NCBI GenBank assembly: GCA_021153985.1
Contig: JAJKJM010000041.1
Coordinates: 1-64,000, forward strand
DNA: 64,000 nt
Reading direction: 5' to 3'
DNA from: Polaromonas sp.
Lineage (GTDB): Bacteria > Pseudomonadota > Gammaproteobacteria > Burkholderiales > Burkholderiaceae_C
Part shown: positions 17,434 to 18,837 of the stretch, piece after piece
How positions within the stretch are numbered: position 1 is the first letter of the stretch
How the letters are laid out: every line of letters begins with the position of its first letter
Position numbers and translations under genes: made by a program
Notes under the pieces: model-generated
What the model was told of the DNA's origin: nothing
The model's input: the letters and a program-made list of their open reading frames with translations, nothing else
Databases searched by the model: none

Positions 17434-17569
17434 ACAGTGCGCGAATGACAGCGTGCCCCACCCAAAACAGATTCACCTAACGGCGTGTGAATTAAGAAGC
17501 GCGTCCCGAGACCGCGCAGCGCTCTTCATCCCGCCAGCAATAGCAATGCAACAGCAACAGAAATGGCGC

Positions 17570-17598
17570 TTGCGCAGAAGCCAAGATGTTGCTATATT
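17570..17598 (+). promoter_or_regulatory. Candidate sigma70 promoter of the MNT-HEPN pair
   Basis: TTGCGC, 17-nt spacer, TATATT; the -10 lies inside operator site 1. Confidence 0.5.
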
Positions 17599-17646
17599 AG
17601 CAACAAACGTTGCCATAACAACTCAATTCGTTGCCTAATAGGCAAC
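17588..17646. promoter_or_regulatory. Phased operator array (three GTTGC sites, 21-bp periodicity)
   Basis: 17588 GTTGCTATATTAGCAAC (palindrome), 17609 GTTGCCATAACAACTCA (left half-site), 17630 GTTGCCTAATAGGCAAC (palindrome). Confidence 0.7.
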
Positions 17647-17684
17647 ATCACCAACCCTGCAAAAGTCGAACCAGACACGAGACG

Positions 17685-18290
17685 ATGAGCGCAGCACTAT
17701 CAGCCCTCTTTGGAGGTGAAATCAAGCCCAAACTGCTGCAGGCCCTCTTCTTCGGCCCGCACAAGACCTATCACTTGCGTGGTTTGGCAAACGAGGTGGG
17801 CTCGAACGCGGGCAACGTTTCCCGTGCGCTGCCGGCGCTGCTCCAAACACACCTCGTGAAGGTGGTGCACGACGCCCGCGGTGCCCAGTACCAGGCGGAC
17901 GAATCCAGTCCGCTGTACCAGCCGCTGCGCCAGCTCCTGCTGGCCGACAGCGCGCTTGTAAACGACCTGAGGGCCGTCGCAGAGGAGTTGTCCGTCGAGG
18001 ACGCGTTTGTCTTCGGCTCGGTCGCCCGGGGCACCGATGGACCCGACAGCGATGTGGACGTGCTGGTCATCGGAGACATCTCGTCGGTAAAGGCCATGGC
18101 CGCATTCAGGCCGGTGGCGCGCAAGCATGCCCGCGAGGTCAACGTCATGGCGGTGTCGCGAAAGGAGATGGAGCAGCGCACCGCTCAGGGCGCCGAGTTC
18201 TGGAAAGACGTCTGGCAGAATCGCCGGATTCCCCTGAAAGGCCCTGCAGATGTCCCTGAGGTCGGCAAACGAAATCAACCAGGCCAATAG
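17685..18290 (+). CDS. wHTH-minimal nucleotidyltransferase (MNT) protein, antitoxin-like
   Basis: N-terminal winged-helix 'KTYHLRGLANEVGSNAGNVSRALPALLQTHLVKVVHDARGAQYQ'; NTase motif 'FGSVARGTDGPDSDVDVLVIGD'. Confidence 0.85.
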   Translation: MSAALSALFGGEIKPKLLQALFFGPHKTYHLRGLANEVGSNAGNVSRALPALLQTHLVKVVHDARGAQYQADESSPLYQPLRQLLLADSALVNDLRAVAEELSVEDAFVFGSVARGTDGPDSDVDVLVIGDISSVKAMAAFRPVARKHAREVNVMAVSRKEMEQRTAQGAEFWKDVWQNRRIPLKGPADVPEVGKRNQPGQ

Positions 18291-18708
18291 CGGCAAGGCC
18301 TTCCGGCAGGCGCCCGCCGACAAGACCTTTGTTCAGAACATGGTGCGAGAGGCCCACGCGCGCCGCAAAGACTCTCAAAACAAGTCGGTCAGTACCGGGC
18401 TTCGCATCGACGCCTGTCACGACGCCGCCCTGATGCTTTCTCTGGCGGTGCTCAACGCCGGCGGGCTACGCGGCACGGCGGCCCCTGGCCACCATGCCAA
18501 CGCCCTTGAGGCCGCATGCCAGGCAGTAGGTGCGCCACTGACAGTCTTCGATGAACTTGACGCTGTGCTCCGTCTGCGAAACACAAAGTACGACGGCAGC
18601 TTTCTCTCTGAGCAGGATCTGAAGACCGCGGATGCCGCTTATGTGCGCTTCGAGCCTCTGGTGATGGATTGGTTCGAGAAGAAGCACTCGGCTCTATTCA
18701 AGCCCTAA
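18250..18708 (+). CDS. HEPN-like partner of MNT protein (putative toxin)
   Basis: All-helical small protein with 'LDAVLRLRNTKYDGSFLSEQDL' (HEPN-like R-N-x-x-Y motif), overlapping the MNT gene by 41 nt. Confidence 0.65.
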   Translation: MSLRSANEINQANSGKAFRQAPADKTFVQNMVREAHARRKDSQNKSVSTGLRIDACHDAALMLSLAVLNAGGLRGTAAPGHHANALEAACQAVGAPLTVFDELDAVLRLRNTKYDGSFLSEQDLKTADAAYVRFEPLVMDWFEKKHSALFKP

Positions 18709-18801
18709 TGGCGCCAAGCCCACCATGGGCTTAGCGGCTGCGTTACATCATCTGCTGCATACCCCCTTCGGGGCCCGGCACTGCGCCAGCGGCCCAGACG
18801 T

Positions 18802-18837
18802 AAAAAAGCCGGCGCACCCGCAAGGGATGCACCGGCT
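18802..18837 (-). terminator. Rho-independent terminator of DoxX gene (minus strand)
   Basis: Minus strand AGCCGGTGCATCCCTTGCGGGTGCGCCGGCTTTTTT. Confidence 0.85.

Follow-up and report, generated by a model that had tools for sequence, protein, structure and literature searches.

A 21-bp phased array of dyads as the likely operator of an autorepressed PDC-M05 operon in Polaromonas

Two overlapping genes coding for a wHTH-MNT protein and a HEPN-type partner are preceded, in the window (the whole stretch of 64,000 nucleotides from Polaromonas sp. analysed here), by three similar 17-bp sites. This arrangement raises the question of which protein reads the sites and what its binding does to the genes behind them. 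The array is very probably the operator of this PDC-M05 (wHTH-MNT and HEPN-type) operon, which the product of its own first gene would repress. The features on which the argument is built are the following.

17434..18803, no strand assigned: cassette inserted between a sigJ-like and a doxX-like gene (right end approximate; empty site in two congeners)
17570..17575, + strand: candidate -35 hexamer TTGCGC, 3/6 to consensus
17588..17604, + strand: putative operator site 1, GTTGCTATATTAGCAAC, 7/8 pairs
17593..17598, + strand: candidate -10 hexamer TATATT, within site 1 (from the sequence)
17609..17625, + strand: putative operator site 2, GTTGCCATAACAACTCA, left half kept, right half degenerate
17630..17646, + strand: putative operator site 3, GTTGCCTAATAGGCAAC, 8/8 pairs
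17685..18290, + strand: wHTH-MNT gene (PDC-M05A), proposed autorepressor (Pfam, PADLOC, structure model)
17808..17846, + strand: predicted recognition helix, codons 42-54 (H42-54 in the model; half-site covariation in homologues)
18015..18059, + strand: GSX10DXD nucleotidyltransferase motif, codons 111-125 (sequence; 167/168 homologues)
18250..18708, + strand: HEPN-type partner gene (PDC-M05B; PADLOC PDC-M05B 4.7e-35, full length)
18577..18597, + strand: RNTKYDG motif of the partner, with a tyrosine and without RX4-6H (sequence; family survey)

The 21-bp phasing described in the initial annotation is exact: the 17-bp sites, all of GTTGC type, begin at 17588, 17609 and 17630, with the sequences given there. 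Sites 1 and 3 had both been called perfect palindromes. This holds for site 3 (8/8 arm pairs) but not for site 1, in which only 7/8 positions pair; it reads GTTGCTA-TAT-TAGCAAC, the unpaired arm position is a T/T next to the centre, and the outer arms are lengthened by a flanking T and A (TGTTGCTA...TAGCAACA). The middle site was rightly said to keep only its left half, since GTTGCC is retained and 2/8 pairs form in register; on its right side, CAAC stands 3 bp too close (GTTG-CCATAA-CAAC). The distance of 38 nt from the end of site 3 to the ATG at 17685 is likewise correct. As for the proposed promoter TTGCGC-N17-TATATT, it exists and its -10 lies within site 1, but its -35 matches the consensus at just 3/6 positions and a consensus-based promoter scan leaves it uncalled. 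When the 250 bp upstream were shuffled with dinucleotides preserved, 0/20,000 sequences had two such dyads with a common half-site, and no further dyad pair of this kind was found elsewhere in the 64-kb window. Because GTTGCY-N5-RGCAAC is matched in the host assembly (4.51 Mb, 89% complete) by sites 1 and 3 only, the array looks, at this stringency, like a dedicated operator rather than part of a regulon. Directly upstream of the candidate promoter, at 17535-17565, an imperfect direct repeat (CAGCAATAGCAATG / CAGCAACAGAAATG) is present with a 17-bp offset, out of register with the operator array.

The 17685-18290 product is a protein of 201 residues combining an N-terminal winged helix with a nucleotidyltransferase domain (Pfam NTP_transf_2, 9e-10), and its best PADLOC model is PDC-M05A (1.7e-48, residues 3-190). 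The winged helix had been proposed before, and the structure model and the wHTH profile matches of homologues agree on it. In the model, the N-terminal part comprises helices H13-23, H31-38 and H42-54 and two strands, with pLDDT block means of 84-90 across residues 21-70; the catalytic part is modelled poorly (alignment of two sequences). The N-termini of homologues match MarR, IclR, ArsR and other wHTH Pfam models, profile matches in the PDB are to ArsR-type repressors, and a fold search with the model gave little information past 'winged helix'. The GSX10DXD motif of the window protein is GSVARGTDGPDSDVD (residues 111-125). Against the curated MntA antitoxin model the protein scores 27.4 bits, below the cut-off of 60. 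No AbiEi or AbiEii Pfam match was obtained for the window proteins, and AbiEi_4 was matched weakly by 1/40 homologues. Concerning the start of the gene, an in-frame TTG is present at 17631, within site 3, and in L004, the closest homologue at 43% identity, the start is an ATG equivalent to 17685.

The partner gene overlaps the wHTH-MNT gene by 41 nt, and a homologous partner is found directly downstream in at least 123 of the 168 loci surveyed. The partner family is characterised by the motif RNxx(x)Y, mostly followed by (E/S/D)G, which places a tyrosine at the histidine position of RX4H; RX4HXY occurs in 1/123 partners, and the window partner is without it. No HEPN-family Pfam match was obtained for the window partner and four homologues. 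Because a tyrosine replaces the catalytic histidine in this family, the partner may be something other than a canonical HEPN RNase. Since it has no RX4-6H RNase motif, 'antitoxin-like' is a label that we infer for the wHTH-MNT protein by homology.

The recurrence of the array was surveyed in 168 homologues with upstream DNA, drawn from the window's own family, order and class together with one actinobacterial contig. A repeat was defined as a 17-nt stretch within 135 bp upstream that agrees at 12 or more positions with the sequence at a lag of 10 to 44. A lag-21 repeat was found in 107/168 homologues, every other lag from 10 to 44 being represented in at most seven loci. In non-redundant sets the repeat was present in 53/94 (<70% identity) and 13/25 (<50%); control stretches further upstream gave 1/93 and 1/25 and those within genes 5 and 3 in the same sets, where shuffles gave about 0.1-0.6. 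Overall, control stretches gave 1-9 and shuffles about 0.1-1. With a model of four half-sites, in which two 17-bp dyads are scored jointly, the best lag was 21 in 143/168 homologues. The initial annotation had made its reading depend on GTTGC-type arrays upstream of homologues: the phased arrays do recur, but the GTTGC half-site itself is restricted to some members.

About one third of the homologues are without a clear lag-21 repeat at the threshold used, for which divergent sites, another spacing or misplaced starts are the alternatives considered. The divergent subclade of the window member includes loci spaced at 20 bp, with as many as four sites (L005, L007, L009, L033), as well as members at 21 bp (L004, L011, L017, L022). 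In L005, L007 and L033, four dyads at a 20-bp pitch are seen upstream of the gene. An archaeal homologue on a Halorubrum plasmid (L190) has two TTTCCTAATAGGAA-like dyads with 18-bp spacing, about 70-100 nt before the gene, and no clear array was found upstream of a homologue in a phage record (L192); because of these two loci, the 21-bp rule holds for Pseudomonadota only as far as shown. A single-protein search of genome contigs returned two distant relatives only, and no homologue was found in viral contigs searched with two subfamily proteins. Two loci of one genome, about 5 kb apart (L145 and L164), have identical helix segments and almost identical half-sites, an apparent duplication of the module. 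That co-resident modules avoid shared half-sites was not supported in 10 pairs (mean similarity 0.51 vs 0.54 in the background).

The sequence of the half-site differs between members. GTTGC is found in L015, L017, L018, L022, L034 and L039, and other members carry GTAGC, ATACCCA, ATGCTAA, GTTCTCA or GATGC. ATACCCA is paired with the helix GAVQREL, GTAGC with GTLHKEL or GTLNKEL, GTTGC/GTCGCC with GTL(A/G/M)RE, ATGCTAA/GTGCCAA with ASLQREL, GATGC with GTITREL and GTTCTCA with some GSLHREL helices; GTTGC recurs in the window (helix SNAGNVSRAL), L017 and L022. Over 71 non-redundant arrays, helix identity and half-site similarity are correlated with a Mantel r of 0.72, and of 0.60 when NTase-domain identity is held constant, compared with maxima of 0.22 (full) and 0.16 (partial) in 1000 permutations, a procedure that does not fully remove shared ancestry. 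The reverse partial correlation (NTase given helix) is only 0.16. Residues most associated with the half-site include 22, 23, 32, 35, 41, 42, 45 and 46, some of which may reflect clade structure, as single-position scores are uncorrected for ancestry. Since the half-site tracks the recognition helix even between proteins with distant catalytic domains, the covariation argues that the downstream wHTH-MNT protein itself is the array binder.

The position of the array relative to the promoter was analysed in 83 arrays aligned on the start of dyad 1. Promoter-like pairs accumulate with their -35 at offsets -9 and -6 (13 and 18 of the 83 arrays, for a mean of 0.57 per register), and -10-like hexamers accumulate at +14 and +17 (19 and 17 arrays), which places dyad 1 within the -35/-10 spacer. 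An in-frame ATG falls within dyad 2 in 49/83 arrays, and of 56 ATGs located in site 2, 50 share the reading frame of the gene and run into it without a stop, when about one third would be expected. A promoter can be recognised in 42 arrays; in 22 of these the ATG lies exactly 7 nt past the -10, and in only 2 does a Shine-Dalgarno-like stretch precede the start. Site 2 covers both the predicted +1 and the in-frame ATG in many homologues. Because the ATG stands at a fixed 7 nt from the -10 and Shine-Dalgarno-like stretches are nearly absent, a leaderless mRNA with its start codon within the operator is predicted in many family members; in the largest subfamily the consensus of the site includes the ATG, whose fixed distance therefore depends on the operator, whereas its reading frame is independent of it. 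Loci with this predicted layout include L146, L048, L035 and L140. The window member departs from it, having three sites, a -10 within site 1 and an ATG 38 nt past site 3. Its sites 2 and 3 overlap the expected start and extend past it, and its promoter is weak by consensus, in a register unlike the family norm.

These observations can be assembled into a model in which the wHTH-MNT protein would bind the 17-bp dyads as a dimer. Because 21 bp corresponds to two turns, bound dimers would be neighbours on the same face of the helix, where they could touch, an arrangement favouring cooperative occupancy; the phase is compatible with cooperativity without proving it. Occupied sites would cover the promoter, block RNA polymerase and shut the operon off. 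In many members dyad 1 would act from within the -35/-10 spacer and dyad 2 over the +1 and the start codon, and in the window member dyad 1 would cover the -10, with sites 2 and 3 directly downstream. Every lineage would possess its own half-site and a matching recognition helix. Two hallmarks of an autorepressed operon with phased dyads are found here, namely dyads over the promoter of the gene itself and a DNA-binding domain matching the sites. As far as sequence comparison goes, the autorepression by the first-gene protein put forward in the initial annotation is strongly supported, by the family-wide lag-21 arrays and by the covariation of half-site and helix. The individual events of binding, repression and modulation by the partner are putative, and cooperativity, a role for the weak middle site and the antitoxin function are what we infer from the layout.

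A protein that binds the array could also act mainly by activation, or as a switch set by the modification state of its partner, rather than by simple repression. With GSX10DXD retained in the MNT domain and a tyrosine in the partner, AMPylation could influence DNA binding through feedback, and in Burkholderia cenocepacia a PDC-M05A gene is transcribed more strongly during infection by phage (PMC12584637). We consider this alternative unlikely, as sites that overlap the core promoter and the start codon form a repressor layout and the studied relatives SO_3165, AbiEi and Rv2827c repress.

A second alternative bears on which protein reads the dyads, in an operon that was apparently acquired. 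The sigJ-like and doxX-like genes on its two sides are adjacent in two congeneric genomes (L177, L178), which thus display the empty site, and a search of 86 further congeneric genomes gave no homologue at E <= 1e-24. Because of this empty site and of the lack of homologues in the genomes searched, the module and its operator are apparently a compact, laterally gained cassette, which in the window spans about 1.37 kb and contains the array, the two genes and nothing else. An unrelated host regulator might control such an acquired operon through the dyads, since a promoter overlaid by dyads is nothing specific, and foreign DNA inserted between these two genes might plausibly be silenced. This is nevertheless highly improbable: GTTGCY-N5-RGCAAC is present nowhere else in the genome, and the arrays travel with the gene across many genera while their sequence varies with its recognition helix. 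It is scarcely credible that the repeats are RNA hairpins in the transcript, for instance a type III-like RNA antitoxin or a translational control element, even if tandem dyads before a toxin-like operon recall one and 17-nt dyads with 7-8 pairs could fold. Many homologues have dyad 1 in the -35/-10 spacer, where it would stay untranscribed, and the start codon in dyad 2; G-U accounts for 21% of the mismatches in the arms, which shows no preference for wobble pairs as an RNA stem would have; and the half-sites track a DNA-reading helix.

Autorepression through the array would provide a concrete and readily testable regulatory mechanism for PDC-M05, a common yet uncharacterised candidate defence module. 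At the scale of the family, it is likely that PDC-M05 follows one conserved promoter-operator design, with 17-bp dyads at an exact 21-bp pitch, dyad 1 in the -35/-10 spacer, the transcription start and start codon of a leaderless mRNA in dyad 2 and a half-site that diversifies with the recognition helix. If true, the diversification of half-site and helix would amount to a natural winged-helix specificity code, and the about 70 to 80 non-redundant helix/half-site pairs are a source for reading it. The predicted leaderless start within the operator would join repression and translation start in one DNA segment, a layout of which no description was found for HEPN-MNT operons in the literature searched. 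Operators or regulation of PDC-M05, and a family-wide 21-bp phased array of diversified specificity, are likewise undescribed in the openly accessible papers searched, most subscription papers and bioRxiv-only preprints lying outside this scope.

Autoregulation as such is already known for HEPN-MNT (SO_3165) and AbiE operons. In the case of SO_3165, a stand-alone MNT antitoxin, the protein binds to the promoter of its own gene and represses it (PMC4621449); in this promoter, two palindromes dissimilar to each other are located near the -10 and -35 (PMC4621449, PMC7641770). The window operon resembles the HEPN-MNT type VII systems (SO_3166/SO_3165, HepT/MntA) in having the MNT gene first and the HEPN gene second, overlapping, and in the GSX10DXD motif. 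Contrary to SO_3165, its MNT protein carries an N-terminal winged helix and its operators form a phased array with matching half-sites; contrary to type VII pairs in general, its HEPN-type partner has no RX4HXY. The operon would work like an autoregulated toxin-antitoxin operon, and membership in type VII is not claimed. It also recalls the 'Class II' HEPN/MNT pairs (PF05168/PF01909), stated to be without biochemical study, by the absence of RX4H, a conserved tyrosine and an adjoining MNT with GSX10DXD (PMC7641770), a likeness by description, since the window partner and four homologues give no HEPN-family Pfam match.

In AbiE type IV systems (AbiEi / Rv2827c), a wHTH antitoxin autoregulates an NTase operon via several repeats over the promoter, and the binding of Rv2827c to multiple repeats is negatively cooperative (PMC7319586). 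A wHTH protein, an NTase and several repeats at the promoter are common to these systems and to the window operon. However, AbiE has a separate antitoxin and NTase toxin and units of 23 bp, whereas in the window wHTH and NTase are fused in one protein, a HEPN-type protein is encoded by the second gene and the dyads are of 17 bp at a 21-bp pitch. The PDC-M05 system of PADLOC is defined as a nucleotidyltransferase and a HEPN-domain protein, a candidate defence system whose antiviral role is unconfirmed (PMC12988326), and M05A is among the loci upregulated during phage infection (PMC12584637). The window operon conforms to it in gene content, M05A and the adjacent M05B being the best matches of its two proteins.
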